Assembly: GCA_013141255.1 (NCBI GenBank)
Contig: JABFRJ010000215.1
Location: 1 to 41,006, forward strand
Length of the DNA stretch: 41,006 nucleotides
Direction: 5' to 3'
Source: Hyphomicrobiaceae bacterium
GTDB taxonomy: Bacteria > Pseudomonadota > Alphaproteobacteria > Rhizobiales > Hyphomicrobiaceae
Within the stretch, counting starts at the first letter, position 1, and each line of letters begins with the position of its first letter. A model generated the notes under the pieces. The model did no database searches, was not told the DNA's origin, and saw only the letters and a list, made by a program, of their open reading frames with translations. Below, piece by piece: positions 2,313 through 24,306 of this stretch. The position numbers were made by a program, and so were the translations under genes.

Positions 2313-3281
2313 ATGTTCGGTCGATCCAGTACGGCGGTCTCGATGATCGCAGCGGTGTTTGCATTGTGTTTCCCTCAAAACGCGAGTGCACAACAACAGT
2401 TCTCTATCTCGACCGGCGGTACTGGCGGGGTCTATTACCCGCTGGGTGGCGGCATTGCCAATGTGATTTCCAAGGCTATTCCGGGCGCTTCAGCAACCGC
2501 AGAAGTGACGGGTGGATCAGTCGACAACCTCAACATCGTCGGCTCGGGCAAGGGGGAACTGGCGTTGGCGCAAGTCGATGCCGTCATCGAGGCCGTAAAA
2601 GGTCAGGGCAAGTTCAAATCGCCGTTACCAATTCGAACGCTCGCCGTTCTGTATCCAAACGTGCAACAAGTAGTTACGCTTGAAAGCACAGGCATAAAAA
2701 CGCTGGCGGATTTGAAGGGCAAGCGCATTTCCACGGGCTCGCCAGGCAGCGCAACGGAAGTCTTGGCCTTGCGGATTATCGAAGCTGCCGGCCTCGATAA
2801 GGACGTTGATGTCAAACGCGAACGGCTCGGCGCGGCGGAGAGCGGCAATGCACTTAAGGACGGCAAGATCGATGCCTTCTTTTTTCCATCAGGATTGCCG
2901 ACATCCGCCATTACAGACGTGGCAAATACGCCTGGCATCAAGATCAAACTGATTGACCACGACTCGACGGTCGAGGCTATGAACAAAAAATTCGGCACAA
3001 TCTACACCAGCTATGAAATTCCCATGTCGATCTACAAGGGCATGGACAAGCCGAGCAAGGCCGTCTCGGTGTGGAACATCTTTATCGCCAACGCGAGCAT
3101 GAAAGACGAGACGGCGTACCAGATCACCAAACTCATCTTCGAAAAGCATGCTGATCTGGTGGCGGTCCATCGGGAAGCGACAAATATCAAACCCGAAAGC
3201 CAAAAGACTGGCTATGCGGGAGCACCATTTCATCCCGGTGCCCTTAAGTATTTCGCCGAACGCGGCTGGAAAGTTGATTGA
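2313..3281 (+). CDS. TRAP transporter TAXI-family substrate-binding protein, copy 2
   Basis: Second periplasmic TAXI receptor, 322 aa. The signal peptide starts MFGRSSTAVSMIAAVFALCF and ends near SAQQQ; the mature part repeats the STGGTGGVYYPLGGG opening of copy 1. The two proteins match almost throughout (ISKAIPGASATAEVTGGSVDN is shared), differing mainly at scattered positions and in the signal peptide. It lies 113 bases before the fused permease in the same direction and is the likelier cognate receptor. The Shine-Dalgarno region before 2313 is weak. Whether the copies bind the same ligand is unknown: several positions differ in the central region, for example VVGVPTSA in copy 1 against PSGLPTSA here. 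Confidence 0.93.
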   Translation: MFGRSSTAVSMIAAVFALCFPQNASAQQQFSISTGGTGGVYYPLGGGIANVISKAIPGASATAEVTGGSVDNLNIVGSGKGELALAQVDAVIEAVKGQGKFKSPLPIRTLAVLYPNVQQVVTLESTGIKTLADLKGKRISTGSPGSATEVLALRIIEAAGLDKDVDVKRERLGAAESGNALKDGKIDAFFFPSGLPTSAITDVANTPGIKIKLIDHDSTVEAMNKKFGTIYTSYEIPMSIYKGMDKPSKAVSVWNIFIANASMKDETAYQITKLIFEKHADLVAVHREATNIKPESQKTGYAGAPFHPGALKYFAERGWKVD

Positions 3282-3394
3282 AGATTCACCTCACTCCAAC
3301 CGCCTGATCCCTTTATCCTGCGGTGTTGCTGTTGCTTCGATGATTGTAGATCGCGCTTTTACGTCGAGCGCCCTGCCCACGTGAAAGCGCCGTC

Positions 3395-5446
3395 ATGACC
3401 ATGCCTGCCAAAGACCTGCCCAAAATTGCCGAAGTCGAACTCGATGAAGACGCTCGCAAAAAGATCGAAGCGTACATCGAGGAGGACGAAGGCGCGACCA
3501 ACAAGGTCGGCGGCACACTCGGAAAAATACTGATGGCACTCGCTATCGGTGTCACGCTGTTCCACCTCTATGCGGCCGTTGCCGGATCCTATCCCTTCAC
3601 CGCGTTTCCAATTGTGCCGACTTATCTGCTGCGTCCGCTGCACGTTGGTATGATCCTGATGTTGTCGTTCCTGCTTTTCCCAATGCTGAAGAGCTTACGG
3701 CATCGCGTAACACTGCTTGATTGGGCCTTTGCTTTGGCGTCCGTCGCCATCATCGCCTACATCATTAGTCAGGGTGACGAATTCGGCGACCGCGCCGTCA
3801 GTCCTGATAAATTTGACGTCTGGATCGGCATTGCGTTTATTGCGCTGCTGCTGGAGGCGACACGCCGCACGACAGGCATGGTGATGCCTGTAATTTGTGC
3901 GATGTTTTTATCCTATGCGCTAGCTGGCCCTTATTTGCCACAACCTTGGACACATCGAGGCTACGGTATAGACCGGCTCGTCGGCCAACTATACATGACA
4001 CTTGAGGGCATATTCGGCACCGCCGTCGACGTGTCGTCGAGCTTGATTATTCTATTCACGATCTTTGGCGCGATCTTGCAGTACTCAGGAGCGGGCAAGT
4101 TCTTCATCGACTTTTCGCTCGGGATGATGGGAGGAAAGCGCAACGCCGCTGGACGCACTGTGGTGCTGGCGTCGTTTCTCATGGGCGGCCCATCAGGGTC
4201 AGGTGTGGCCACGACCGTCACAATCGGCACTGTCGCCTATCCCATGCTGCAGAAGGCAGGCTACGAAAAGAACGCAGCCGGTGGGCTTTTGGCCGCTGGC
4301 GGGTTGGGAGCTATCATCTCGCCACCAGTGCTTGGTGCAGCAGCTTTTCTGATCGCCGAGTTTCTCAAGATCTCATATTTTGATGTGATCTTGATGGCGA
4401 CGATCCCGACAGTGCTCTACTACTTCGGCATTCTCGTGATGGTCGAATTAGATGCGCGCAAATACGGCGGCGGCGGCGAACGTATCGTCGCACCAATCGA
4501 TCTGTGGGCGCTGACCAAGAAGTATTGGTTCCATTTCGGCTCATTGATTTCGATCATTGTCTTCATGATGTTTGGATTTTCGCCGACGGTTGCGGTTTTC
4601 TGGGCCACGGTATTGGCTATTGCGTCGAGCTTTCTCAGTCGCGACTCGGCTCTGGTGCCGTCCAAACTAACTCGTGCTTTGGCCGAAGGTACGACAGGCG
4701 TACTCAATGCGGCGACGACGTGCGCATCTGCTGGCATTATCGTCGGAGTGGTGACGCTGACGGGGCTCGGCCTCAAGTTCTCGTCCATCGCTATCGACTA
4801 TGCGGGCGGCAGCTTGTTGCTGACTGCGATCTACACCGCGTTGATCGTGTGGATCGTTGGGCTCGCAGTTCCGGTTACAGCCTCATACATCATCTGCGCT
4901 GTGATCGCGGCGCCAGCACTCACAAAACTCGGCGTACCGGATTACGCGGCCCACATGTTCATCTTCTACTACGCTGTGTTGTCCGAAGTATCGCCGCCGA
5001 CCGCATTATCACCATTCGCGGCAGCAGCCATAACAGGCGGTAGTCCCTACAAAACCACGCTGCAATCCTGGAAGTACACGATGCCGGCATTTCTCGTGCC
5101 GTTTGTCTTCATTCTTGATCCTGTCGGCACAGGGCTGCTGCTCAAGCCCGCCAAAGGCGTGACCTGGTTCGATGTGACATACGTGACGATGGTAACCGCT
5201 TTCGGCATTGTTGCGCTCGGAATTGCGGCTCAGCATTGGTTGATCAAACGAAACTCGATCATTGAGACAGCGTTGTTTGCCGTCGCCGGACTGATGTTCA
5301 TGTTCCCGAAGTTAATTGATGGGATCGTGAAGTCGCTTACGGGATTTACACCAGCGTATCATGCACCCATTGCACTAGCGTTATTTGTGGCGACATATGC
5401 CATGCATCGGACGCGCGCAGCCATAGGAAAGCCGCAGACGGCTTGA
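3395..5446 (+). CDS. TRAP-TAXI transporter fused permease (DctQ-DctM type)
   Basis: Integral membrane permease of a secondary, ion-coupled TRAP uptake system, 683 aa. This is the length expected for the fused small (4-TM, DctQ-like) and large (12-TM, DctM-like) subunits typical of TAXI systems. A charged cytoplasmic N-terminus of about 45 residues precedes many hydrophobic segments. The DctM-like part carries glycine-rich stretches (MGGPSGSGVATTVTIGT; AGGLGAIISPPVLGAAAF) typical of the family. The start at 3395 is followed by another ATG at 3401, and the ribosome site (GTGAAAG) is weak, so either may be used. It follows two TAXI receptor genes and meets the ferredoxin-NADP reductase gene tail to tail. 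Substrate unknown. Confidence 0.93.
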   Translation: MTMPAKDLPKIAEVELDEDARKKIEAYIEEDEGATNKVGGTLGKILMALAIGVTLFHLYAAVAGSYPFTAFPIVPTYLLRPLHVGMILMLSFLLFPMLKSLRHRVTLLDWAFALASVAIIAYIISQGDEFGDRAVSPDKFDVWIGIAFIALLLEATRRTTGMVMPVICAMFLSYALAGPYLPQPWTHRGYGIDRLVGQLYMTLEGIFGTAVDVSSSLIILFTIFGAILQYSGAGKFFIDFSLGMMGGKRNAAGRTVVLASFLMGGPSGSGVATTVTIGTVAYPMLQKAGYEKNAAGGLLAAGGLGAIISPPVLGAAAFLIAEFLKISYFDVILMATIPTVLYYFGILVMVELDARKYGGGGERIVAPIDLWALTKKYWFHFGSLISIIVFMMFGFSPTVAVFWATVLAIASSFLSRDSALVPSKLTRALAEGTTGVLNAATTCASAGIIVGVVTLTGLGLKFSSIAIDYAGGSLLLTAIYTALIVWIVGLAVPVTASYIICAVIAAPALTKLGVPDYAAHMFIFYYAVLSEVSPPTALSPFAAAAITGGSPYKTTLQSWKYTMPAFLVPFVFILDPVGTGLLLKPAKGVTWFDVTYVTMVTAFGIVALGIAAQHWLIKRNSIIETALFAVAGLMFMFPKLIDGIVKSLTGFTPAYHAPIALALFVATYAMHRTRAAIGKPQTA

Positions 5447-7243: not shown

Positions 7244-10200
7244 GTGACCACTCCTTCATGCAACAGCACTTCGGCCAAACCCAATGCGCCACCCCGTCAA
7301 AAGGCCTCCATCTGCTCCGTAAGTCTTTCCATTGGCTTGAGCGCATTCGTGCTCGCCTTCATAAATCACCTCCCCGCAATCGCTCAGGAAACCGGCATGA
7401 GACCAGGTGAAGCGTTTCTCACCCGTTTTTCTGGCATCAAGCCGGCTGAGGGCGCCGGTGAGACTGGTCCTTTCGTGATCGCGTCAGAAGGTATTGTTGG
7501 CAGCATTATCGATTTGCGCGCACCCGGTCGGCCACCACAGGGATCACACTGGATTGACGAGCCACAACGAGCATTTGTGACCGCAGCCGATGTCGGCCAA
7601 GTCTTCGGTGTTGTCCTCGACGAGCAATCGCCGCCGAATATCTACATAACCGCGACAGCAGCGTTCGGCCTGCATACTGCAACAGGTAGTCGGCGCTGGA
7701 TGGACGGTATGTGGGGCCGTCGTGGCGGGCCTGGTACGATCTATAAGCTGGACCGTAGTAACGGCTACAAACCGACACTGTTCACCGACGTAAAACTCTC
7801 AGGTCGAGCCAACACCGGCGCCGCGCTCGGTAACATAGCGTTCGACAAGGTAAATCGTCAGTTCTTTGTCTCAGACCTTGAGACCGGCATGATCCATCGC
7901 ATCGCCGCGGTCGATGGTGCCGACCGCGGACACTACGATCACGGTGTGCAAGGCCGCGCGCGCTTCCTTGATGTGCCTACCAAACAGCAACAGTCGCTCA
8001 CTCCCATAGCATTCGATCCTGCCTCGCGTGCACGACTTGAAGACTGCCCAACGGGCCGCTTCGACCAGACACCCGAATGCTGGAACCTCGCCGCCGCGGG
8101 CCGTCGTGTCTGGGGCGTCGGTGTCTGGCATGAGCCTGGACGCGGTGAGAGCCGCTTATTCTATGCAATTTGGAGCGGACCTGGCCAAAGCGGTGGCGAT
8201 TGGGCCAACCGGTCAGAAGAGGACAAACGCAGCTCCGTCTGGTCCGTTGGCATCCGTCAGGACGGCGCGCTCGATCCCAACGACATCCGCCGCGAGCTGA
8301 TTCTGCCCGATTTTTTTGTATCCGACTCTGACATAAAGCGCGCAGGCTACAGCCAGCCCGTCAGCGACATTTCTTTCACAGGTTGCGGTGAACGTCCCGT
8401 CATGCTGCTGGCCGAACGCGGCGGTTTGCGTAACTTGGGCCTCGGCGAGGAGGCCGCGTTCTCCAAGCCCCATGAAGCGCGGGCGCTACGTTATGAGCTC
8501 GATCGGTCCGGCGCATGGCGTCCCGTTGGTCGTTACGACGTCGGCTATTATGACCGGAGCGAGGAAGGCCAACCGCATGTCCGTGCTAACTGCTCCGGCG
8601 GCGTCGCATTTGGCCCGGGTTATGATGAGAAAACTTGGACCGCCGACACAACCAAGCGTGATCAATACGTCTGGATCAGCGGCCACGCACTTTGCGCGCC
8701 CAAGGCGCCTTGCAATTTGCCGGGCTTCGGCCAGGAGTTAGCGGAATCAGTGCCAACTTCTGGCGACACAAAATCGGCATCAGGAACACCACCTGCTACT
8801 CCGGCAGCAGTTGAAGGTGATCCTGGCGGCCCTGACGACAGCGAGGTGCATGGCATTGCCGGCATGGCCGAAACAGCATTCGAGGAAGTCGCTCCAACTG
8901 CCGCGTACCGCCCCTATCCGACCGACACGCAGGCCGCCTATCCTGCCACCGGGCCTGACCGTGCCTACCTGGTAGACGCCGATATCAACGTCGACGCTCG
9001 CGGCGCGCTGATCGAGACCGAAATCACACGAAACGATGCCACCCGAATCGGCGACATCGTCATTTATCAACCCTGCCCGCCGCCGCGCACCGCCGGCATT
9101 GCAATTCCCACGGGCTTGTTACTCACGCCCCCGCTTGCGGAAGACCCACCCATGACATGGGTCGATCACCCATCCGACATCAGTCACGCTCGCGTGGCCA
9201 GTCACGGGCGTTTCTCCAGTCACAGCCGATACGGTTCGCACAGCCCCTACTGGAGCCACAGCCGCTTCAATTCTCACAGCACGTTCTGGAGCCATAGCAG
9301 AACAGCGTCACACAATCCGATCTGGAGTCATAACCGCTTGGCTTCACATAGCCGCGAACGCAGCCACAGCCTAACCTCGTCACACACACGTGTCAGCAGT
9401 CACTTCCGCATCGGTTCGCATTCCCAGGAGGGCAGCCACAACCGTCTGCGCTCCCACAACCCGTCCATCAGTCACGCGGCGACAGCGTCGCACAATCGCA
9501 CACTCAGCCACACACGCCTATTTTCGCATAGCGTCGCACTGAGCCACGTCAGGCTCTCAAGCCACGCCACGGCATTGAGTCACAGCCTTAAAGGATCACA
9601 TTCCACAGTCGTCAGCCACAAGGGGAGTTCGTCACACAATCTTTCGCTCAGCCATGGCCGTACCCAGTCGCACAGCCGCTCCATCAGCCACACAATCACA
9701 GGATCCCACGCGGCTGCCGTCAGCCATGGCCCGAAGACAAGCCACGCCACCCTCATCAGCAAGGGCGGACAACATACCCTTGTGAAGAGCCACAGCGTAG
9801 AGGGGAGTGGTGGTCATGGTGTCGTGTTGAGCAAAGGACCTCAGCATGCGGTTGTGCTCAGTAAAGGCCAGACCCACAGTATCTTGCACTCGAAGGGTAC
9901 GGTGCATCAGGCGTCGATCAGTACAGCAGTCGCAGTCGGCGGTGCCGTCGCGATCATTGGCGCGACCAAGGGCGCTGGAGGCCACGTTAGGGCAATTTCT
10001 GCACTGCAGTCGCTGCCACAGGGATTGCCAAAGACGCAGACCGGCAATCCATTGACGAACGGAGGTGCCCCCGTCGTGGTGCCGAAGACCGGCCAGCCGA
10101 TTGTAGTCAAACCGAAGATCGATTTGCCGAAAGTGATCACGCCGAAGATCGATCCACCAAAAGTCATCAGACCGAAAGTCGATACGCCAAAGGTGACCAC

Positions 10201-10366
10201 AACCAAGGTCGATCCGACGAAAGTGATCAGACCAAAAGTCGATACGCCAAAGGTGATAAGACCGAAAGTCGACACACAAAAGAGGCCGGTGCAAAAGGTA
10301 CAACAGAAGGCCACGGTCAAGCCTGTCGTCAAAAAGAAGGACGGACCACAGGACAGGAAGAACTGA
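7244..10366 (+). CDS. Secreted 1040-aa protein: propeller-like N-terminus, 32 SHxxxx repeats, Lys-Pro tail
   Basis: No known family is recognised for the whole protein. It starts with GTG at 7244 (GGAG nine bases upstream). A signal peptide with a long n-region and a hydrophobic core at about 22-40 probably cleaves after AIA at residue 47. Residues ~50-520 contain blade-like segments (LGNIAFDKVNRQFFVSD; PVSDISFTGCGERPVM) suggesting an NHL/SMP-30-like beta-propeller. A low-complexity Pro/Ala/Thr linker (~530-580) follows. Residues 647-838 are 32 uninterrupted hexapeptides S-H-x-x-x-x, then Ser-Lys-Gly/His decapeptides (839-891), a hydrophobic glycine-rich stretch (~893-910), and a Lys-Pro-Val-Asp decapeptide tail (957-1016). 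A secreted gene lies 4 bases downstream, so the two are probably co-expressed. An envelope or surface role is inferred; function unknown. Confidence 0.85.
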   Translation: MTTPSCNSTSAKPNAPPRQKASICSVSLSIGLSAFVLAFINHLPAIAQETGMRPGEAFLTRFSGIKPAEGAGETGPFVIASEGIVGSIIDLRAPGRPPQGSHWIDEPQRAFVTAADVGQVFGVVLDEQSPPNIYITATAAFGLHTATGSRRWMDGMWGRRGGPGTIYKLDRSNGYKPTLFTDVKLSGRANTGAALGNIAFDKVNRQFFVSDLETGMIHRIAAVDGADRGHYDHGVQGRARFLDVPTKQQQSLTPIAFDPASRARLEDCPTGRFDQTPECWNLAAAGRRVWGVGVWHEPGRGESRLFYAIWSGPGQSGGDWANRSEEDKRSSVWSVGIRQDGALDPNDIRRELILPDFFVSDSDIKRAGYSQPVSDISFTGCGERPVMLLAERGGLRNLGLGEEAAFSKPHEARALRYELDRSGAWRPVGRYDVGYYDRSEEGQPHVRANCSGGVAFGPGYDEKTWTADTTKRDQYVWISGHALCAPKAPCNLPGFGQELAESVPTSGDTKSASGTPPATPAAVEGDPGGPDDSEVHGIAGMAETAFEEVAPTAAYRPYPTDTQAAYPATGPDRAYLVDADINVDARGALIETEITRNDATRIGDIVIYQPCPPPRTAGIAIPTGLLLTPPLAEDPPMTWVDHPSDISHARVASHGRFSSHSRYGSHSPYWSHSRFNSHSTFWSHSRTASHNPIWSHNRLASHSRERSHSLTSSHTRVSSHFRIGSHSQEGSHNRLRSHNPSISHAATASHNRTLSHTRLFSHSVALSHVRLSSHATALSHSLKGSHSTVVSHKGSSSHNLSLSHGRTQSHSRSISHTITGSHAAAVSHGPKTSHATLISKGGQHTLVKSHSVEGSGGHGVVLSKGPQHAVVLSKGQTHSILHSKGTVHQASISTAVAVGGAVAIIGATKGAGGHVRAISALQSLPQGLPKTQTGNPLTNGGAPVVVPKTGQPIVVKPKIDLPKVITPKIDPPKVIRPKVDTPKVTTTKVDPTKVIRPKVDTPKVIRPKVDTQKRPVQKVQQKATVKPVVKKKDGPQDRKN
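9182..9757 (+). repeat. In-frame 18-bp repeat x32 (SHxxxx), with a 36-bp superunit
   Basis: Thirty-two contiguous hexapeptides, each starting Ser-His, fill 576 bases with no indel. Position 3 is mostly S/N/T/A, position 4 often Arg, and position 5 often hydrophobic. The repeats pair into 12-residue units. Odd-numbered repeats all use AGY for Ser; 13 of 16 even-numbered ones use TCN (exceptions 2, 22, 32). Even repeats usually end in W, L, I or V, whereas odd repeats usually end in a small or polar residue. The unit is therefore 36 bp, multiplied about 16 times and then diverged under selection to keep Ser-His. Confidence 0.95.
9758..9916 (+). repeat. Ser-Lys-Gly/His decapeptide repeats
   Basis: Immediately after the SHxxxx array the pattern changes to about four units of roughly ten residues, with Ser-Lys-Gly followed three residues later by His: SKGGQHTLVK, then after a 13-residue insertion LSKGPQHAVV, LSKGQTHSIL and HSKGTVHQAS. 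The His content continues but the phase changes, as if capping or extending the hexapeptide structure. Confidence 0.75.
10112..10291 (+). repeat. Lys-Pro decapeptide repeat tail (PK[IV]DxPKV)
   Basis: Six 30-bp units encode PKIDLPKVIT-like decapeptides; the last is degenerate. The units are close at DNA level (PKVDTPKVIR occurs in near-identical form), so the tail expanded more recently than the SHxxxx array. Basic, proline-rich tails of this kind are extended and are often found where proteins cross or bind the cell wall; that role is inference here. Confidence 0.85.
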
Positions 10367-10370
10367 TCCG

Positions 10371-11549
10371 ATGAGCATCGACGTTCGACCACCGACCGGG
10401 AGACGGGGGCTGGTATCGCGCCAGCCCTGGCGCACCGCCCAGAGGATCAACTTTGCGGTGGCGGCACTTGCCATCATTGTTTTTGTGACCGGCGCATCGG
10501 TGGCCGAGCCTCTGAAACTGTACACCAACCAAGCCTATCTCGAGGAAGCGCAGGACGCGCGCGTTCTGCCGTTGGATGATAAGAAGGCAATGTTCAAGCT
10601 TGTGCTCGACAGTCTGCCACCGCGCGTGAAGGTCTATCCGACGGAGAACTATTTCTACTTTAAGTTCTTGCACAACAATGTGCCTTGGGCTGGCAACATC
10701 CGACTAGACGTACTCGAGCGCGACAAAGGCAAAGTCAACTTTGCCTATTTCGAAGACCTTGCGGAATGGAAGAGCGAGGACCAGGTGCGCCATAAACTGT
10801 TCGATTCCACTGACGGTGTCGTCGTCGAGAAGGTCGCTGCACTATTGTATCGAGTGTCGATTGCGGGCAGTACTGTGGAGTTCGAGTTGAACAATCTAAG
10901 TGCCGTTAAGCCGCCGCCTGGATTGATGGTCGACGACGAACGCTATATTGGCCCGGTGCATGATGAGTCCGGAATGCGCTTCTTCCTACTTTACAACAGC
11001 CGACTAAAGATTTTCCATTATATCCTCGACGAGACAGCGCAGCGCACAGACCAACTGCTTCCCTTGCCCTCGACCGATCGCATCGTCATCGGCAAACGCA
11101 CCGGATTTGCCTACTATCGCGATCAGAAGCATGGGGTAGGGAAACCAGAGCGCAAGATTCTGATCGGGGTTTTCGAGGGCAACGCGCGCGTCAACAACTA
11201 CTTCGATGGCCCCTTCGATCAGTTACCCGACAACTTCATCGAAGGCGAACAACTGCGCAGCGCGATCCTCGAGGTCGAGCCGCAACTAAAAGGGCGCATT
11301 GACCGGTTTGGCATTTCGCCGGGCGGTGCCGACCGCTACATGATCGCACCATATCGTTTTTATCGCACCGAGGAAGACCTGCTTGTGTTCCATGAGTGCG
11401 CCGAGAGCAAGGAAGTTCCGGTCAAAAATTTCGGCGCTTGTTTCGTGTTTCAGGAAACGCCGCCGCCAGATACCGTGACCGAAGCGCCGCCTGCAGCCGC
11501 CCGCCAAAATCGTGCCAATATCAAAGCTGCTCGACCAGCCGCGCGATAG
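10371..11549 (+). CDS. Secreted protein of unknown function, partner of the SHxxxx-repeat protein
   Basis: Not recognised. 392 aa with a basic N-terminal region (several Arg before residue 25), a hydrophobic core at about 28-41 and a probable signal-peptidase site after ASVA at residue 45, so it is exported or anchored. The mature part is mixed alpha/beta with many aromatic residues (ENYFYFKFLHNN; YMIAPYRFYRTEEDL) and only two cysteines, both near the C-terminus (HECAES; GACFVF), possibly a disulfide. The C-terminal ~35 residues are Pro/Ala-rich and look disordered. It begins 4 bases after the repeat-protein stop, implying translational coupling and a joint envelope function. Start alternatives are not better supported. 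Confidence 0.8.
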   Translation: MSIDVRPPTGRRGLVSRQPWRTAQRINFAVAALAIIVFVTGASVAEPLKLYTNQAYLEEAQDARVLPLDDKKAMFKLVLDSLPPRVKVYPTENYFYFKFLHNNVPWAGNIRLDVLERDKGKVNFAYFEDLAEWKSEDQVRHKLFDSTDGVVVEKVAALLYRVSIAGSTVEFELNNLSAVKPPPGLMVDDERYIGPVHDESGMRFFLLYNSRLKIFHYILDETAQRTDQLLPLPSTDRIVIGKRTGFAYYRDQKHGVGKPERKILIGVFEGNARVNNYFDGPFDQLPDNFIEGEQLRSAILEVEPQLKGRIDRFGISPGGADRYMIAPYRFYRTEEDLLVFHECAESKEVPVKNFGACFVFQETPPPDTVTEAPPAAARQNRANIKAARPAAR

Positions 11550-13003: not shown

Positions 13004-14026
13004 TTACTTTCGGCTATGGATGGCTCTATGAACAAAAGCCAATTTTTCATACACAGCCGCAGTGATTACAAACGGATAGAAATCCGCATGTCCCATGCTG
13101 CGGGACATACTGTTCATCGCGATTGTCAGCGGAATCCAACGATCCATTAATGATCCGAATGACTGATCGCGATAAACATCATACTTCTTAAACGGCCAGA
13201 TCGACCCGAGCGAAAGACCAGCGGCGCGCGGCTCCATACCCTCCGCTTCCGCCGTATCGACAGCGTCAGTCATATGGAGATAGTGGGCCCATGTTTCCGC
13301 CCAGTCTTCCCACGGGTGCGCACTCGAATAGGGAGATACAAAGTGCGCTTGCCAATCAGGTCTCGGTTGGCTGGAATGATAGCTGGAGAGAGCGGTCTGA
13401 TAATCTTGCTGCTCATCTCCGAACAGCTTGCGAAACGGCAACAGCAGGGACGATTGTTCTACAAGAGACATCCAATAGAAATGACCGCATTCGTGACGAA
13501 GATGGCCGAGTAGATTGCGATAGGGTTCGCCGAAATGTTGGCGCAATCGCTCACGCTCAACAGCGTCCGCTTCGATCACATCAATAGTGATAACCCCGTT
13601 GATGTGACCTGTAATGGTGTTGCGGGCAAAATCAAAAGTCAGCGGATTCATGTCGTCAGGACCGTTGCCCAGGGGCAGTCCCAATCGCAACAGCGAATAG
13701 ATGAGCCGTTTTTTGGCGCGCTCCAGATCGCGCCAAGCAGCAAGCCCTCCAGCCTCCGATAGATTCGGAATGGTGCGGTTAAGGTCGCAGGCTAGGCAGA
13801 GTCGGTTTGCATCGTCGACGCGCGTGACCCAGTTGCAAACCTGATGCACGGCATTGGCGCACAATTCGTGCCGCTGCGCAGGTGGCTTTGAACCGACGGC
13901 GACGGCCCCGACAGTCGTCATTGCCATAGTCGTTGCACTAAATCCGAACGATTGACGACACCGTACGCAAGAGACGCTCTCGAAATACACTTTATTCTGG
14001 CAATGCGGGCAGAGGAATGTCTTCAT
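13004..14026 (-). CDS. Zinc-ribbon zinc-binding metallopeptidase (COG4307 type)
   Basis: 340-aa predicted metallopeptidase. An N-terminal zinc ribbon is formed by C6, C9, C20 and C23 (LCPHC ... CVRC). The catalytic motif HECGH at 178-182 fits HExxH, and a downstream WEDWAETWAHYLHMTD block provides a candidate third metal ligand. The family is known to occur beside transglutaminase/ATP-grasp/alpha-E clusters, and here it is divergent from one, 290 bases away. It has no signal peptide, so it is probably cytoplasmic. Possible job: processing or removing the peptide made or attached by the neighbouring ligase. The ATG at 14026 starts directly at the ribbon and fits the family. Confidence 0.88.
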   Translation of the reverse strand: MKTFLCPHCQNKVYFESVSCVRCRQSFGFSATTMAMTTVGAVAVGSKPPAQRHELCANAVHQVCNWVTRVDDANRLCLACDLNRTIPNLSEAGGLAAWRDLERAKKRLIYSLLRLGLPLGNGPDDMNPLTFDFARNTITGHINGVITIDVIEADAVERERLRQHFGEPYRNLLGHLRHECGHFYWMSLVEQSSLLLPFRKLFGDEQQDYQTALSSYHSSQPRPDWQAHFVSPYSSAHPWEDWAETWAHYLHMTDAVDTAEAEGMEPRAAGLSLGSIWPFKKYDVYRDQSFGSLMDRWIPLTIAMNSMSRSMGHADFYPFVITAAVYEKLAFVHRAIHSRK

Positions 14027-14145
14027 GTTCGGGACAACGGCGCTCCAAGGCTGAATTGCCGACAGATCCTATCGGCAGCGGTACAATAGTTTAGGCATCG
14101 ACATTTTGCTCGCTTTTAAGGCAGATTGCATAGGAAAGATTGTGT

Positions 14146-14162
14146 CCTGCCTTTAAGGCAGG
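14146..14162. promoter_or_regulatory. Palindrome in the divergent peptidase/transglutaminase promoter region
   Basis: CCTGCCTT-T-AAGGCAGG is a perfect 8+1+8 inverted repeat. Its right part, TTTAAGGCAG, occurs again as a direct copy at 14115-14124. The placement between divergent genes of one cluster suggests an operator for a dimeric regulator; no regulator gene is adjacent. A hairpin in the leader RNA is an alternative. Confidence 0.45.
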
Positions 14163-14316
14163 CACCTCTGCGCCACCGAAACGCGCAACTTATGCCAAGC
14201 TCACTGAAGCATCGCAAGTGAAACGACGTTACCGACCAAGTCTTGACCTCAATTCTGGGACGCATCTGCCAAGACGGTCTCAAGAGCAGAAACACAAGCA
14301 AGGCATATAACTGTCC

Positions 14317-17300
14317 ATGGTTCTTCATGTCGGCCTGACCCACACCACGATATACAAATATGATCGGAGGATCGGCATGGGTCCACAGGTAATCCGGCTT
14401 CGGCCAGCACCCCATTGCCGGACGCCGATCCTGAGCTACTCACTCACCCTGCAGCCAGAAACACACTTCATCAATTGGCAACAAGATCCGTTCGGCAATT
14501 TCCAAGCCCGCGTGGTTCTGCCAGAAGAAACCGATACCTTCTCGGTCACCGTCGATCTTATCGCCGATATGGCAGTCATCGACCCGTTCAATTTTTTCGT
14601 GGAAGAGCAGTCGTTAAATTGGCCTTTCCCCTACGAGCCGGTCCTTGAAAAGGAGCTGCACCCATATCTGGAGCCCGAACTCGTCGGCCCGCGCCTAGGG
14701 CAGTATATTGCTGGTATCGATCGCCGCCAGCGCTCCACGATTGATTTTTTATGCGATTTGAACAGGAAACTGCAGCACGACATAAGCTATTTGATCCGTT
14801 TAGAACCTGGCATCCAGACGCCAGAGGAAACGCTGGAAAAAGCAGCAGGTTCATGCCGGGACAGCGCCTGGCTGATGGTTCAAATCTTGCGCAACCTCGG
14901 ACTCGCAGCTCGCTTTGTATCGGGCTACCTGATCCAACTCAAACCCGACGTCAAAGCCTTAGATGGCCCAGTCGGTAGCGACACGGATTTTACGGATCTG
15001 CATGCGTGGACCGAAGTCTACATCCCAGGCGCAGGCTGGATTGGGTTGGACCCGACCTCTGGCCTTATGGCCGGCGAGGGTCATATTCCTTTAGCGGCGA
15101 CACCACATCACGTCTCGGCTGCGCCGATCTCTGGCAGTCACGGCATGGCCGAAGTCAGCTTCGATTTCAAGATGTCGGTCACCCGCTTCCGTGAGACGCC
15201 GCGCGTCACCAAGCCATACAGCGAGGAAACCTGGACAAAAATCGTCAACACCGGCGTGGCAATCGACGCGCGGTTGATGAAAAATGACATCCGCCTCAGT
15301 ATGGGCGGTGAACCAACCTTCGTCGCGGTAGACCATAAGGACGGCGCCGAATGGAGCATCGCGGCCGTTGGCCCGACAAAACGTAGGTATGCCGAGTCAT
15401 TGGTCCGCCGCCTGCGCGAGCGCTTCGCACCCGGTGGATTACTCCACTACGGTCAAGGTAAATGGTATCCCGGCGAACCACTTCCGCGATGGTCGTTTGC
15501 GGTCTACTGGCGCACCGACCGTCAGCCACTCTGGAACGATATCAATCGGATTACCCGTGAGACGGACAAGTCGCCGGTTACCGAGACCGACGCCCAAGTC
15601 TTTGTCGCCAAGCTTTGCGATAAACTCGGCCTGCCGCCCAACAGTGCCACAGCGGCCTATGAAGATTTCGCTCACGTCGTCCTCGCCGAGCAGGGCCTTC
15701 CCGTCAACGCAACTGCCGCCACCGCTGACTTCGACGATCCAGGTAGCCGCGAACGATTGGTCCGCCAATTGGACGGCGGCCTCATGCGGCCAGCCTGCTA
15801 TGTGCTGCCAATACAGGCTTGGCAATCGCGCGAACTCGGGCGTCGATGGATGTCAGACAGATGGAAAGTACGCCGCGAACGACTGTTTCTGCTGCCAGGC
15901 GACTCGCCCGCCGGTTTTCGTTTGCCGTTGGCATCGTTAGAAGCGCTAGCCCCTCTTGACCGCCCGCAGATCTTACCTCGCGATCCCTTTGCACCCACCC
16001 CATCACTACCAAGCAGCGCCGTACTCATGCAGCAACGCCGCGCTGCGACACGCGAAGCCGCTTCGTTCGATGGCTCCCCCTTGACCGACGAAAATATCCC
16101 CGTTCGCACAGCGCTCGTGGTTGAGCCGCGTGATGGCAAGATTAGTGTTTTCATGCCACCGCTCGCAGACGCAGAAGACTATTCGGCGCTGATCGCTGCA
16201 ATCGAGGCATCAGCCCACGAAGTCGATCTACCGGTACTCATTGAGGGTTATGCACCTCCCAATGACCCTCGCCTCAATGTCATCAAGGTCACTCCGGATC
16301 CAGGCGTCATCGAAGTCAACGTGCAACCCGCAACGAACTGGGACGAGCTAGTTGCAATCACAACAGGGCTATATGAGGACGCCCATCTTGAGCGGCTCAC
16401 CACCGAAAAATTCATGCTTGATGGTCGCCACACAGGTACCGGCGGCGGCAACCATATCGTTCTCGGCGGCCTGACACCTGCTGACAGCCCATTCCTTCGC
16501 AGGCCGGATCTTCTCGCCTCCATCGTCACCTATTGGCAGAACCATCCCGCACTATCGTACCTGTTTTCAGGACTTTTTATCGGTCCGACCAGTCAGGCAC
16601 CGCGCAGTGATGAAGCCCGCCACGAGGCACTCTATGAACTCGAAATCGCAATGGCACATATCCCCGATGCGGCAGCCGATAGTTTGCCGCCATGGATCGT
16701 CGACCGCATTTTCCGCCACTTCCTAGTCGATGTGACGGGCAACACCCATCGGGCCGAAATCTGTATCGACAAACTTTATTCACCCGATAGTTCGACCGGG
16801 CGTTTGGGCCTCGTCGAGTTCCGGTCATTTGAAATGCCACCGCACGCCCGCATGAGTCTGGCCCAGCAACTGCTACTTAGGGCATTGATCGTCATGTTCT
16901 GGGAGAAGCCGTACCGTCAGAAGTTCGTTCGTTGGGGCACCACCCTGCATGATCGATTCATGCTCCCTCATTTCCTTTGGTCGGACCTCGTCAGTGTCGT
17001 CGACGATGTCAACCGAGCCGGGCTGAACATTGATGCAGCGTGGTTCAGACCTCACTATCAGTTCCGTTGCCCTGTATTGGGACGCATCGAGGCTGCCAAC
17101 GTCGAACTAGAAGTCCGGCAGGCGCTTGAGCCCTGGCATGTGCTAGGTGAAGAAGCAGCCGCAGGCAGCACAGCCCGCTACGTCGATAGCTCGCTCGAGC
17201 GCGTTCAAGTCAAAGTGCGTGGCATGACAGGCGATCGATATGCAGTCACGTGCAACGGCCATGCGGTGCCACTTGCTCCGACCGGGACCTTTGGCGAGGC

Positions 17301-17610
17301 CGTTGCAGGCATTCGCTTTCGCGCTTGGGATCCGCCTTCGGCATTGCACCCTATGATCACACCTCATGTCCCGCTCACATTCGACGTGGTCGATACCTGG
17401 TCAGGACGTTCTATCTCCGGGTGCCGTTATCATGTCGCCCATCCCGGAGGTCGCAATCCGGAGACCTTCCCCGTTAATGCCTACGAAGCCGAAGGCCGCC
17501 GATTGGCCCGCTTCGAAGCCCATGGGCACACGCCCGGGTCACGGATTGTGCCCCCCATTATTGTCAATCCGGATTATCCCCTGACTCTTGATCTAAGGCG
17601 TGCGAATTGA
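14317..17610 (+). CDS. Transglutaminase-like/DUF2126 protein
   Basis: 1097-aa protein, the usual length for this family. It has a bacterial transglutaminase N-terminal region (residues 1-~130, with RLRPAPHCRTPILSYSL), a transglutaminase core with catalytic triad C180 (AGSCRDSAW), H229 (DLHAW) and D245 (LDPTSG), and a large C-terminal DUF2126 region (~300-1097) with blocks such as LSMGGEPTFV and HTGTGGGNHIVLGG. It probably acts as a cysteine peptidase or amidotransferase on peptide substrates. It leads a same-strand cluster with an ATP-grasp/alpha-E fusion and a second transglutaminase. This set has been proposed by comparative genomics to synthesise or attach peptides; no product is established to my knowledge. 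No signal peptide. The ribosome site is weak, but the N-terminus fits the family. Confidence 0.92.
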   Translation: MVLHVGLTHTTIYKYDRRIGMGPQVIRLRPAPHCRTPILSYSLTLQPETHFINWQQDPFGNFQARVVLPEETDTFSVTVDLIADMAVIDPFNFFVEEQSLNWPFPYEPVLEKELHPYLEPELVGPRLGQYIAGIDRRQRSTIDFLCDLNRKLQHDISYLIRLEPGIQTPEETLEKAAGSCRDSAWLMVQILRNLGLAARFVSGYLIQLKPDVKALDGPVGSDTDFTDLHAWTEVYIPGAGWIGLDPTSGLMAGEGHIPLAATPHHVSAAPISGSHGMAEVSFDFKMSVTRFRETPRVTKPYSEETWTKIVNTGVAIDARLMKNDIRLSMGGEPTFVAVDHKDGAEWSIAAVGPTKRRYAESLVRRLRERFAPGGLLHYGQGKWYPGEPLPRWSFAVYWRTDRQPLWNDINRITRETDKSPVTETDAQVFVAKLCDKLGLPPNSATAAYEDFAHVVLAEQGLPVNATAATADFDDPGSRERLVRQLDGGLMRPACYVLPIQAWQSRELGRRWMSDRWKVRRERLFLLPGDSPAGFRLPLASLEALAPLDRPQILPRDPFAPTPSLPSSAVLMQQRRAATREAASFDGSPLTDENIPVRTALVVEPRDGKISVFMPPLADAEDYSALIAAIEASAHEVDLPVLIEGYAPPNDPRLNVIKVTPDPGVIEVNVQPATNWDELVAITTGLYEDAHLERLTTEKFMLDGRHTGTGGGNHIVLGGLTPADSPFLRRPDLLASIVTYWQNHPALSYLFSGLFIGPTSQAPRSDEARHEALYELEIAMAHIPDAAADSLPPWIVDRIFRHFLVDVTGNTHRAEICIDKLYSPDSSTGRLGLVEFRSFEMPPHARMSLAQQLLLRALIVMFWEKPYRQKFVRWGTTLHDRFMLPHFLWSDLVSVVDDVNRAGLNIDAAWFRPHYQFRCPVLGRIEAANVELEVRQALEPWHVLGEEAAAGSTARYVDSSLERVQVKVRGMTGDRYAVTCNGHAVPLAPTGTFGEAVAGIRFRAWDPPSALHPMITPHVPLTFDVVDTWSGRSISGCRYHVAHPGGRNPETFPVNAYEAEGRRLARFEAHGHTPGSRIVPPIIVNPDYPLTLDLRRAN

Positions 17611-17771
17611 AGTCGAAACAATAAACTAAGGGGCAATGAGTACGCTACATTGGGTACGGATTGCTCTCCAAACGCATCGTGCTACTTTCCATTAGCCCTT
17701 GGAATCGTTGATTCTGGTGCAAGCTTGCCTGAACAACGACAAGAAATGGCGCGGGGAAAAGGCCTACCTTT

Positions 17772-20339
17772 ATGATGCGAGCCGCAGTGACCGATGCCCA
17801 GCAGCAGTCAGATCTGCTTGAAGCCTATCGAAACGCCACTTCGTCGGGCTACGACGAGTTATTGGATGCAACGAGCAAGGTGCGCCCGCACTGGCAACCA
17901 CTGCTCGCAAACATTCAAGCACTAACTCCGGAAGAACGGGCAAAGCGTGCGCAGCACCTCGATCGGCGTGTGCAGGATACCGGCATCGCCTACGATATTT
18001 TCGCTGACCCCAGCAAGCCGTCGCGGGGCTGGCGGCTCGACCTCATGCCCTTCGCTATATCTGCCGGCGAATGGCGCTTTCTGCAGACCTCATTGATCCA
18101 ACGGGCACAATTGTTCGACGCCATTTTGGCTGATCTTTACGGCAAGCAGTCTCTGATGAAGCAGGGGCTAATTCCGCCAGAGTTGGTTTTTGCCGACCCC
18201 TCCTTCCTGCGCCCGTGCCTCGGAATAGTGCCCGAAGCTGGACATCTGCAATTCTACGCGGCCGACCTTGCCCGCGACGCGGCGGGGCAATGGCGCGTCA
18301 TCGACAACCATACCGAGACACTCGCCGGCATTGGCTTTGCACTCGCCAATCGAGTAGTTCATACTCACGTCGCAGGCGACATCTTCAAACAAGCCAACGC
18401 GCTGCGGCTCGCTTCATATTTTCAGAACCTTCAAAGCGCATTGACGCTCCATTGCGGACGTGAAAATGCGCGCATCGCACTTCTGACACCCGGTGCGCAT
18501 CATCCCGACTACTTTTCCCATGCCTACCTCGCGCGCTATCTCGGGTATCTCCTCGTCGAAGGCCCTGACCTCAGGACCAAAGGCAACAAGATATGCCTAA
18601 AGACACTTGAAGGTTTGAAGGAAATTGATCTCATCGTGCGCTGTGTTGACGGCCATTCCAGCGATCCGCTGGAACTTGATCCATCTGGCTTCCAAGGCCC
18701 GGCGGGCCTCGTGCGTGTCTGCCGTAAGTCGCCAAAACTGGTGGTCAATGCAGTGGGAACGGCCATCACGCAGAACCGTGCGCTTGGCATTTACTTGCCG
18801 CAGTTAGCCAAGCATATCTTGGGCGAGGATCTCGCAATCTACGATGCGCCACGATGGTGGCTTGGTGACCCAGCGTCGCAAAATCGAGTCTTTAATAACA
18901 TTGACGACGTCGTCATTCGCTCGGCGCAAGAGGGCACCGGACGCCCAGGTCAAGCGGCAGCAGGCAGCCCACCCCGAAAGAATTCCAACGCCGACTGGCA
19001 AGCGCTGCGGCGTGACATTGCGCTCCATGGTGCGGGACTCGTGGCGGAGGAGAAGGTGGGCTTCAGCGTCGCCCCGACGTATTCCGCAGTTGGCCTAGTG
19101 CCAAGACCGTTTGCTGTACGCATTTACGTGGCGAAGACGGCAAACGGATACGAGGTGATGCCCGGCGGACTAGCTATGACAGTTGATCCGGATCGGGCAG
19201 TGGCACTCAGCGCGCCAGACGGGCATGCTCGCGACGTCTGGATCGTCTCCGACACTGAGGTGCCGCCGCATGTGAGCTTATGGCGGCCAACTGTCGAGGG
19301 TGCGCGCGTCGAGCGATCGCAGCGCGTGATCCAGAGCCGTGTCGCCGACGATCTGTTCTGGCTTGGACGCTATTGCGAGCGGGCCGATTGGACGATGCGC
19401 GTGCTGCGCAGCGCGTTGCGTCGCGTAGAGGAAGACGGCGGCCCCGCCAATGGGCGACGCGCGGCGCGCACGTGTCTCGAAGTTCTGTTATCCGATCCGA
19501 CATCCACCGTGGGCGCACGAGGGACGCGCCCCACTTCGATAGAGATCGAGAGCCTATGTACGAAGCTCATATCGAGCGGCAAGGGCTATCGTACACTTCA
19601 ACGAACCCTTGCCGGTCTCTATCGCGTCGCCAGCCTTGCACGCGATAGGCTCTCGCATGAGGGTTGGCAAACATTGAGCAAGTTCCGCCCCGATGCCGCC
19701 TGGTCGGCAGCGCTTTCCGCCTCATCCCCTCTCATGCTGCTTGATCAACTCGACGAAGGCTTGGCATCCCTCGCCGCCTTCAACGGATTGATGCACGAGA
19801 ATATGACACGGAATTTTGGCTGGTCATTTCAGGACATGGGGCGACGCCTGGAGCGAGCCTACAACATCTCCGAGGCCATTCACGCCCTCTTTATTCCCGG
19901 CACCGACTCCGAAATCGAAGCCAATGAACTTTTGCTGCTTCTTGAACTCGCCGACAGCTTTATCACGTATCGTTCGCGATACCGCCTCGATCCAATGCTC
20001 GTGTTGGTTCTGGATCTTCTTCTTCTCGATGAGACCAACCCGCGCAGCCTGGCATTTCAGCTCGCCGCGATCTCTTCCCACATGGAAACGCTGCCCGACC
20101 CGACGCAGAAAGCCAACCTTTCTGAGCCCCGCCGCTTGATCCTGGATCTACTCACGTCAATACGACTGGCAGACTTGGAGGCAATGGGCAGGGACGGCAA
20201 TAGGAAATCCCTCGACGAACTCCTCCAAAAGCAACTTCAATTGTTGCCACATTTCTCGAATGCGATTGCGTCACACTATTTCAATATGACCGACGAGGCC
20301 CCCCATCGCGTCCACCTCCGGAGCGATTTCAAATCATGA
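17772..20339 (+). CDS. Circularly permuted ATP-grasp / alpha-E domain fusion protein
   Basis: 855 aa, a fusion of two proteins that are often separate. Residues ~1-480 are a circularly permuted type-2 ATP-grasp (DUF404/DUF407), with PSFLRPCLGI, VIDNHTETLAGIGFALANR, the LTPGAHHPDYFSHAYLARYLG segment and YVAKTANGYEVMPGGLAM. From residue ~523 (RVADDLFWLGRYCERADW) it becomes the helical alpha-E (DUF403) domain. ATP-grasp enzymes of this class are predicted amide-bond-forming ligases. Two ATG codons begin the gene (17772 and 17775), after GGGGAAAAGG. Its end overlaps the next transglutaminase start by four bases, implying tight coupling and probably a complex. Cytoplasmic; substrate unknown. Confidence 0.92.
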   Translation: MMRAAVTDAQQQSDLLEAYRNATSSGYDELLDATSKVRPHWQPLLANIQALTPEERAKRAQHLDRRVQDTGIAYDIFADPSKPSRGWRLDLMPFAISAGEWRFLQTSLIQRAQLFDAILADLYGKQSLMKQGLIPPELVFADPSFLRPCLGIVPEAGHLQFYAADLARDAAGQWRVIDNHTETLAGIGFALANRVVHTHVAGDIFKQANALRLASYFQNLQSALTLHCGRENARIALLTPGAHHPDYFSHAYLARYLGYLLVEGPDLRTKGNKICLKTLEGLKEIDLIVRCVDGHSSDPLELDPSGFQGPAGLVRVCRKSPKLVVNAVGTAITQNRALGIYLPQLAKHILGEDLAIYDAPRWWLGDPASQNRVFNNIDDVVIRSAQEGTGRPGQAAAGSPPRKNSNADWQALRRDIALHGAGLVAEEKVGFSVAPTYSAVGLVPRPFAVRIYVAKTANGYEVMPGGLAMTVDPDRAVALSAPDGHARDVWIVSDTEVPPHVSLWRPTVEGARVERSQRVIQSRVADDLFWLGRYCERADWTMRVLRSALRRVEEDGGPANGRRAARTCLEVLLSDPTSTVGARGTRPTSIEIESLCTKLISSGKGYRTLQRTLAGLYRVASLARDRLSHEGWQTLSKFRPDAAWSAALSASSPLMLLDQLDEGLASLAAFNGLMHENMTRNFGWSFQDMGRRLERAYNISEAIHALFIPGTDSEIEANELLLLLELADSFITYRSRYRLDPMLVLVLDLLLLDETNPRSLAFQLAAISSHMETLPDPTQKANLSEPRRLILDLLTSIRLADLEAMGRDGNRKSLDELLQKQLQLLPHFSNAIASHYFNMTDEAPHRVHLRSDFKS

Positions 20340-21220
20340 TTCTGGAGATCAGCCACAAGACGTTCTACCGCTATGGGACGTCCGTCATTCAATCGCAGCA
20401 TCTGGTGCACAAGACACCGAGATCGATGCCGCATCAGGACGTCCGGTACCATAACCTGATCGTCGAACCGGCCCCAGCAACGCGGTATTCAGGTGTCGAT
20501 GCGTTTGGCAATACAATCGTCATTCTGGATATTGAAGCCGTGCACAAGGAGTTTGTGCTTCATGCACGCAGCGAGATCGCGACGCGTGCAATAGCACCAA
20601 TTGACCTCGCCGCATCCACACCATGGGATGCATTGAAGGCCAGTCGTACGGGATCAGGATCCGCCATGGATCTCGATGTCATTCAATTCCGGTGCGCCTC
20701 GCGACTGACTGTGCCAACCCTCGAAATCGCCGATTTCGCCAGCACGTTCTTCAAACCCGGCCGGCCGGTACTGGAAGCAACGATGGACATGGTCACGCTC
20801 ATGTATCGTGACTTCAAATTTGATCCGACCGCAACAGACATATCCACCCCAATAACCCGGGTTCTCAAGCATCGACGCGGCGTCTGCCAGGACTTCTCGC
20901 ACTTAGCCATAGCGGCTGCGCGCGCAATGAAAGTACCGGCGCGCTACGTCAGCGGCTATGTATTGACTAAGCCACCACCTGGCCAAGCCAAGCTCCAAGG
21001 CGCCGATGCCTCACATGCATGGATTTCCGTGTGGGCTCCCGAACATGGTTGGGTCGACTTCGATCCAACCAACGGCTTACTAGTGTCCGATGAACACGCA
21101 ACTGTTGCATACGGTCGTGACTATGATGACGTGAGCCCAATCAGCGGCGTCCTGATCGGAGGTGGTGAGCATACAGTGTCTGTCGCCGTCGACGTGAGGC
21201 AGGCAGAGGCGGCACCCTGA
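20336..21220 (+). CDS. Transglutaminase family protein (small)
   Basis: 294-aa cytoplasmic transglutaminase/cysteine-peptidase homologue. The N-terminal beta domain opens MILEISHKTFYRYG, as in COG1305 proteins. The catalytic triad is C184 (GVCQDFSHL), H227 (ADASHAW) and D243 (DFDPTNG). It overlaps the ATP-grasp/alpha-E gene by ATGA and ends the cluster. Compared with the 1097-aa protein it lacks DUF2126, so the cluster holds two different transglutaminases. A proteasome-like Ntn hydrolase, often found in such clusters, is not present in the window. Probable role: cleavage or transfer on the peptide made by the ligase. Function inferred from family and context only. Confidence 0.92.
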   Translation: MILEISHKTFYRYGTSVIQSQHLVHKTPRSMPHQDVRYHNLIVEPAPATRYSGVDAFGNTIVILDIEAVHKEFVLHARSEIATRAIAPIDLAASTPWDALKASRTGSGSAMDLDVIQFRCASRLTVPTLEIADFASTFFKPGRPVLEATMDMVTLMYRDFKFDPTATDISTPITRVLKHRRGVCQDFSHLAIAAARAMKVPARYVSGYVLTKPPPGQAKLQGADASHAWISVWAPEHGWVDFDPTNGLLVSDEHATVAYGRDYDDVSPISGVLIGGGEHTVSVAVDVRQAEAAP

Positions 21221-23952: not shown

Positions 23953-24302
23953 AAAAATCAACGGCCATACAATGGGTCAATGTGGGCCGCCTGAGCGATA
24001 TCCCAATCCGTGGCGCGCGTGTCGTAAAAACCGCACGCGGCTGCATTGCGATCTTTCGAACCTCCGAGGACCATGCCTTCGCCCTTGACGACCGTTGTCC
24101 GCATAAGGCTGGACAGTTGTCACAAGGCATCGTGCATGGCACGTCGGTGACGTGCCCGTTGCATAATTGGGTCATCAGCCTTGAAAGCGGCATGGCGCAA
24201 GGTGCCGATCATGGTCAAGTAAGAACCCATCCTCTGAAAATAGAAAACGGTAAACTCCTCCTCGACGTAACAGCGCTCACCACGCGCAGCGCAGCAGCGT
24301 AG
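23949..24302 (+). CDS. nirD: Nitrite reductase small subunit, Rieske-type
   Basis: 117-aa small subunit of the NAD(P)H nitrite reductase. The Rieske fold carries DDRCPHKAG and VTCPLHNWVISL, giving the two Cys-x-His pairs for a [2Fe-2S] cluster, although the function of the cluster varies in this family. The start at 23949 overlaps the nirB stop as ATGA; longer frames reaching back into nirB are ignored. It lies 4 bases before the nitrate reductase gene. It is expected to bind NirB and be needed for full activity. Confidence 0.93.
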   Translation: MKKSTAIQWVNVGRLSDIPIRGARVVKTARGCIAIFRTSEDHAFALDDRCPHKAGQLSQGIVHGTSVTCPLHNWVISLESGMAQGADHGQVRTHPLKIENGKLLLDVTALTTRSAAA

Positions 24303-24306
24303 CCGT

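Follow-up and report, generated by a model that had tools for sequence, protein, structure and literature searches.

What is a bacterial chain made of 32 uninterrupted SHxxxx hexapeptides for, and which of its features has been kept? The DNA analysed here, referred to below as the window, is a whole contig of 41,006 nucleotides (41 kb) from a Hyphomicrobiaceae genome of 3.9 Mb that lies in 562 contigs and is 86% complete. The hexapeptides belong to the product of one gene, P0001, which is directly followed by a second gene, P392 (Table 1). The evidence set out below suggests that the array protein and P392 make up a pair not described before, with P392 acting on the array.

Table 1 Features of the array gene and its partner in the window
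Feature	Position	Strand	Details
Array protein P0001	7244..10366	+	1040 aa, GTG start; from ORF and translation
β-Propeller domain, residues 47–615	7382..9088	+	AlphaFold2 model and VIA-align
Full H-x4-S array of P0001	9167..9922	+	Ser/Thr at His+5; modelled as disordered
Zero-gap SHxxxx run	9182..9757	+	32 units = 16 units of 36 bp; alternating AGY/TCN Ser codons
Array continuation	9758..9922	+	Gaps of 2 or 4 residues (SKGGQH, SKGPQH, SKGQTH)
Lys/Pro/Val/Asp-rich tandem tail	10107..10272	+	30-bp unit, 5.5 copies; C-terminal end of P0001
P392, partner gene	10371..11549	+	392 aa; N-terminus signal-like by eye; 4 bases separate it from the array gene

P0001 consists of a signal-like N-terminus (by eye, residues 1 to ~48), a β-propeller, the H-x4-S array and a basic tail, in that order; the tail shows periods of 30, 45 and 60 bp. 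No Pfam family matched the protein. The NCBIfam model NF033849 (ser_rich_anae_1) gave E 4e-7 and 27.8 bits, under its curated cut-off of 650, and its likeness to P0001 is one of Ser-rich composition only. Using VIA-align, the modelled propeller (residues 47–615) matches nidogen best (1npe_A, Z 21.9, rmsd 2.9 over 256 residues), and NHL and DFPase propellers rank just after (Z about 19–22); the fold is thus shared with YWTD/NHL/DFPase-type propellers, in the absence of a Pfam match, and the templates matched presumably have six blades. Beyond residue ~620 the AlphaFold2 model has a pLDDT of about 25–44, that is, disorder, with 25–35 in the array part. A β-solenoid of the hexapeptide kind was ruled out for the array because the gaps between units vary and because of this low pLDDT.

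The sequence-only reading had placed the hexapeptides at 9182–9757 and had proposed that they descend from a 36-bp unit whose order is still recorded in the Ser codons. They lie in frame within the ORF at 7244–10366 (+), and their position and codon classes are as it described: odd units use AGY in 16/16 cases and even units TCN in 13/16, the exceptions being repeats 2, 22 and 32 (Fisher p = 3.2e-6), and adjacent units alternate in 26 of 31 steps. The last residue of the unit alternates in the same way, being hydrophobic in 1/16 odd and 12/16 even units (p = 1.7e-4). The alternation of codons exceeds both chance (permutation p = 3e-5) and what Ser codon context would give. A null built from the 663 Ser codons of the 25 CDS in the window outside the array, taking account of the codon before each Ser (its third base and the class of its residue), expects AGY at 0.36 in odd and 0.33 in even units, and the observed difference was reached in 0 of 200,000 simulations, which rules out a codon-context artefact as the cause of the parity. 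At the DNA level, identity within the array is 0.49–0.56 at lags of 36, 72, 108, 144 and 180 and 0.37–0.40 at lags of 18, 54, 90, 126 and 162. The contrast becomes weak when only the four free codons are compared (0.36–0.42 versus 0.30–0.34 for lags to 180, and 0.30 for a lag of 216); the Ser codon itself thus makes up much of the 36-bp periodicity of the DNA. The ancestral unit of 36 bp (12 residues) is upheld by the parity of codon and position 6.

The parity was also looked for in homologues, where the expectation held for some and failed for others. In a set of 15 zero-gap SH runs, one from the window and 14 from homologues, nine including that of the window show it at p < 0.01; the eight from homologues partly reflect shared descent. 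Alternation is also perfect in L059 (n = 5) and L127 (n = 6), two runs too short for significance, and there is no parity in the zero-gap runs of L062 (all AGY), L107 and L109 (all TCN) or L088 (n = 6). The closest homologue of the window array, L051, which sits in a Hyphomicrobiaceae MAG, has AGY in 13/13 odd and TCN in 11/13 even units, and the Ser codon class is kept in 24 of the 26 repeats compared between it and the window, as a fossil of repeat order would be. Compared repeat by repeat with the window, identity at the free positions peaks at shift 0 in L051 (0.44) and L053 (0.42), with 0.10–0.33 at other shifts; the comparison with L057 and L058 gives no resolved shift. Judging from these sequences the parity-bearing arrays have a common ancestry, and they are therefore not independent replicates but a measure of the lifetime of a codon class. 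Repetition by pairs of units is also seen at the protein level, similarity at lag 2 being well above that at lag 1 in L101, L107, L122, L125 and L130. The Ser codons are thus a clean natural example of a fossil, in which the AGY and TCN classes record repeat order after the protein has drifted.

The signature itself had to be revised. S-H-x4 does not hold across homologues, where Ser and His need not touch; what is constant is a His, four free residues and a Ser. In 30 array loci, chosen by the motif itself (10 or more units, with more than 45% of His), Ser or Thr stands at His+5 for 1110 of 1227 His (90%), and the gap from Ser to the next His is variable (0–4 residues in 936 of the 1077 cases listed). 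By this pattern the zero-gap SHxxxx run is one sub-case of H-x4-S. In the window, 38 of the 39 His of residues 646–906 have Ser/Thr at +5 and HPSDIS precedes them from 9167, so that the run at 9182–9757 stands as first described but the array is longer, spanning 9167–9922. With arrays weighted equally, His+2 is Pro (0.31), Arg (0.25) or Lys (0.18) and His+4 is often Gly (0.34); no further position is near fixed. Arrays differ greatly in length and composition between loci. The earlier proposal that Ser and His were kept by selection agrees with the comparison of the window and L051: each is retained in 26/26 repeats despite 15 and 10 codon differences, respectively, and the other four positions are alike in 9–14 of 26. 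On this comparison, purifying selection acts on the Ser and His of the array. As had also been supposed, no described repeat family matches within the libraries searched, Pfam and NCBIfam among them. The open-access literature yielded no description of an H-x4-S repeat or of P392, a weak absence, as subscription papers and preprints lay outside its scope. Opposite the arrays of L090 and L084 there are long open mirror frames on the minus strand, as expected of repetitive GC-rich DNA.

The motif is found next to P392 well beyond the window. Of the best 80 of 161 P392 relatives in GTDB contigs, 38 have, no more than 1.5 kb away, an ORF in which Ser is in excess at His+5 (p < 1e-3); of the 73 control stretches beyond 3 kb, none has one. 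At p < 1e-4, 34 of these 80 loci have the excess at +5 and none at +2 to +4 or +6 to +10; any other distance from −12 to +12 is reached in at most 13/80, most of them fitting the repeat period, and the far stretches give 0/73 at every distance. Because the repeats of an array depend on one another, the binomial p values are too strong, and it is the far stretches that serve as the real control. In the 54 loci without a propeller gene, His+5→Ser ranks first of 77 residue/distance pairs versus Ser, with 8 near and 0 far; the next best pair has 3. A further sample from the order gave 22 matches in 29 near stretches and 0 in 28 lying more than 2 kb away. Probably 11 of the 29 duplicate loci of the first set; 13 of the remaining 18 match. 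At 12 places in relatives that are not among the extended propeller loci, 4 match at p < 1e-3.

The propeller loci give the same association from the other side. Of 20 that could be extended, 11 carry an array (p 6e-16 to 9e-48) and P392 adjoins it in 11/11; seven have other tails (p 0.5 or more) and P392 in 0/7, L034 and L050 among these running off the contig; L033 ends inside its array and L049 is truncated. MAG contigs are short, and the downstream gene lies beyond the contig end for L033, L034 and L050; L019 and L049, with a truncated propeller gene, were left out of the propeller comparison. By genome, P392 is present in 13/13 that have an array on the propeller (p ≤ 1e-5) and in 0/6 with other-tail propellers, or 0/16 on adding 10 seen in a view of 1.5 kb only (Fisher 3.7e-5 and 1.5e-8, respectively, not corrected for relatedness). 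In the propeller paralogues without P392 (L032, L034–L037 and L039), H-x4-S is replaced, by eye, by DUF11-like and peptidoglycan-binding-like domains and Cys-rich CPxGTxxxxGxC tails.

The propeller is just one carrier of the array. Beside P392 the motif is found on propeller tails, in stand-alone arrays (L109, L128 and L130) and in small proteins, and no propeller was found in L109, L128 and other array loci. In Legionella gresilensis (L109, 7986–9671), P392 is directly followed by a 216-residue protein that is mostly a SHDKDESHYKTG-type repeat, and stand-alone HIGKPSRHxPEGS proteins lie near P392 in L128 and L130. The small proteins near P392 have signal-like starts and are of the HWRWGS type (L070, L076, L092, L094, L143, L144, L199 and L200) or of the HSRRRS or HYYRRS type (L115 and L205). 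Some of these H-x4-S neighbours are on the strand opposite P392, so an accident of operon structure is not enough to explain the linkage. Taken together, the sequences show that P392 goes with the motif and not with any single protein family. In genome G113, P392 is near a contig start and directly behind an array of the type that ends another contig of the same genome, and in L138 (493–3167) two tandem P392 copies follow one array.

A single case suggests that the distance can change together with the partner. In L148, P392 is 29% identical to that of the window and lies behind a protein with a signal-like start (2871–3797), in which Ser is at His+4 for 10 of 14 His (p = 2.7e-8) and at +5 for 1 of 14. 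This H-x3-S genome has 8% contamination, and P392 was found in 1 of 190 of its relatives, that one being itself.

The main evidence against the pairing is that many P392 loci have no H-x4-S neighbour. At p < 1e-3 there is none in 42 of the 80 loci (best 80 of 161), 7 of the 29 in the second sample and 8 of the 12 in the further set; several of these loci have small proteins at p 1e-3 to 1e-2, and others nothing. In five MAGs a linked copy is accompanied by an unlinked one (L127/L078, L059/L079, L062/L080, L058/L087 and L130/L099), and therefore some P392 may have its partner at another place in the genome, or a different target altogether. The copies without a clear array neighbour in L068, L079 and L080 adjoin era- and recO-like genes (by eye).

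P392 is nearly confined to one order. Counting the window's own genome each time, it is present in 23 of 199 relatives; wider samples gave 44 of 397 genomes for the order, 2 of 385 for the class and 1 of 398 for the phylum. The array protein is matched in 72 of the 199 relatives, again with the window's own genome counted. The GTDB contig search added the outlier Legionella gresilensis; when the first scan of these contigs was started from the propeller it gave no match. Plasmids and phages had no match to P392, and viral contigs had one relative, L178. In a tree of 71 sequences (that of the window and 70 of 81 P392 places), the array label needs 8 changes, compared with a mean of 23 for shuffled labels.

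What kind of protein is P392? It had no match in Pfam (0 families at E ≤ 0.1), NCBIfam, PHROG or the PDB. CotH, the spore-coat kinase considered below, presumably has a Pfam family of its own; P392 matches none, and no CotH-type kinase domain was found in it among Pfam families at E ≤ 0.1. Its structure is modelled with confidence (pLDDT 87.1, pTM 0.81), and the fold searches are weak: the best Foldseek row has E 8.7e-3 and probability 0.11, and in VIA-align 137 of 978 chains have Z of 2 or more, none reaches 5, and the best is 3.5. Kinases among the Foldseek rows (ASK1, AKT1 and PKC) were given no weight because their TM is about 0.1 and their rmsd 12 or more. Such weak matches to a predicted structure do not prove a new fold. 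In the alignment of the same 71 sequences 29 columns are invariant, or 28 if the start Met is not counted; among them are E92, R111, D198, R243, R261, N275, D279, D283, Q284, R322 and two Cys, and the stretch DGPFDQLPDNF is invariant or nearly so. The near-invariant Asp, Arg, Asn, Gln and Glu and this stretch are as expected of a working site. No catalytic residue set was recognised in the protein, and in this alignment no His is invariant and only two Cys are.

Other conserved genes were also sought around the arrays. No third one was found: apart from the propeller/array, P392 and mirror frames, the ORF clusters within 7 kb of 37 loci form only groups of at most 7 loci, and one such small group includes a sequence resembling an ABC transporter (by eye). 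In the window itself, 13004–21220 holds a Peptidase_Mx/zinc-ribbon gene (−), a fusion of transglutaminase and DUF2126 amidoligase, a CP_ATPgrasp-Alpha-E protein and a second transglutaminase, possibly a cluster of peptide-tagging enzymes near the P0001/P392 pair. Further on are genes for a nitrite/sulphite reductase, a Rieske protein, a molybdopterin oxidoreductase and sirohaem synthase (21499–28447) and for an ECF sigma factor and a ChrR-like cupin/zinc-finger protein (29570–30810).

The chain is disordered, its site consists of two residues at a fixed distance, the sites themselves are freely spaced, and the partner accompanies the site across different proteins; together these features argue for P392 being a reader of the site. 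We would give an even chance to the array gene and P392 forming a two-gene exported system in which the partner recognises H-x4-S and covalently modifies each site. An exported β-propeller would bear a disordered tail with about 40 copies of the motif; P392, also exported, would recognise the site and, after export, modify it covalently at Ser, at His or by a link between both; and the chain would become a multiply modified surface or matrix polymer. We infer export from the N-termini, which are signal-like by eye, and in the same manner the binding of the motif by P392 and the chemical nature of its act. A bolder reading, which we hold tentatively, is that P392, with a fold unrecognised in the PDB, is the first example of a novel class of exported enzymes that tie or tag a His and a Ser at a set distance, placing dozens of modifications outside the cytoplasm on any exported chain bearing the site; the H-x3-S case would suggest that the ruler varies with the enzyme.

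Covalent modification is the likeliest act of P392, with about as much for it as against it, and binding without chemistry is next, possible but clearly less probable. P392 would then be a binding, chaperone or assembly protein that keeps hold of the chain while it is exported or fixes it to the surface. Such a role fits the observed linkage equally well, the invariant acidic, Arg, Asn and Gln positions could bind a basic, His-bearing peptide, and P392 has no invariant nucleophile or metal-binding His. More than two residues are usually kept in binding motifs, however, and the exact spacing of two invariant residues with free residues between them suggests joint handling of both side chains. 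That P392 loads or senses metal, and the arrays bind ions such as Zn, Cu and Ni through their His, we regard as unlikely. His-rich exported chains often bind metals, and one array protein (L101) has up to 80 His, but a Ser at exactly +5 is not needed for metal binding, and the lack of an invariant His and the mere two invariant Cys count against a metal role for P392. Low-complexity drift, in which regular spacing is simply a by-product of repeat duplication, is very improbable: the great variation in array length and composition and the modelled disorder are in its favour, but it is largely refuted by the codon comparison of the window and L051, where Ser and His are kept through silent change and their neighbours have diverged, and the same spacing recurs in unlike proteins beside P392 on either strand.

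Proteins that library searches left unnamed can now be described by a motif, assigned a dedicated partner and placed on a family tree. If P392 does modify the site, this would be motif-programmed protein modification outside the bacterial cytoplasm, presumably with the help of a cofactor, and it would offer a system in which to study the reading of a ruler of two residues.

Among known systems, that of His-Xaa-Ser (Hxs), a radical-SAM target, is the least probable identity for the array, and we give it hardly any credence. The NCBIfam model HxsA4 weakly matches the L109 array (E 1.4e-6, 29 bits, cut-off 55), but the distance +2 is never enriched (0/80 loci among the best 80 of 161, versus 34/80 at +5), P0001 has no match to Hxs models at E ≤ 1, and TIGR03978, which we take to be the HxsB-type model, has no match over cut-off and two below it in the window's genome, where, at 86% completeness, a gene could be missing. 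On the spacing and on TIGR03978 the Hxs system is rejected as far as tested. The likeness that remains is that the known Hxs motif also pairs one His with one Ser, which define its repeats, and has a putative maturase; the passages of PMC9062424 on these repeats give a distance of +2 rather than +5 and radical-SAM enzymes in the place of P392.

The NDR/LATS kinases come closer in spacing. Their consensus is HXRXXS/T, and in PMC4320110 neither of the two sites tested in vitro could do without the His at −5; as in the arrays, the His is exactly five residues before the Ser, and Arg or Lys takes the third place in many arrays. The same account describes eukaryotic cytosolic kinases, whereas P392 is not recognised as a kinase. 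Unlike NDR/LATS sites, many arrays have Pro in the place of the Arg, and the fraction of units with Arg/Lys at −3 is 0.39 in the window and 0.00 in L101, L122, L125 and L126.

The nearest working model is the CotB/CotG repeats and CotH kinase of the Bacillus subtilis spore coat (PMC7821199). As described in the sections of that paper on these proteins, CotG repeats are of 5–7 residues, rich in Ser, Lys and Arg and without a fixed His–Ser distance, and CotH has a kinase-like fold, whereas no PDB fold is recognised in P392. By the Pfam and motif tests, P392 and its arrays belong neither to the CotG/CotH nor to the NDR/LATS class. What the array and CotB/CotG–CotH have in common, on the same account (PMC7821199), are short, disordered Ser-rich repeats, a clustered gene for a modifying protein (a putative role in the case of P392), many sites per chain and a surface layer (likewise putative for the array).
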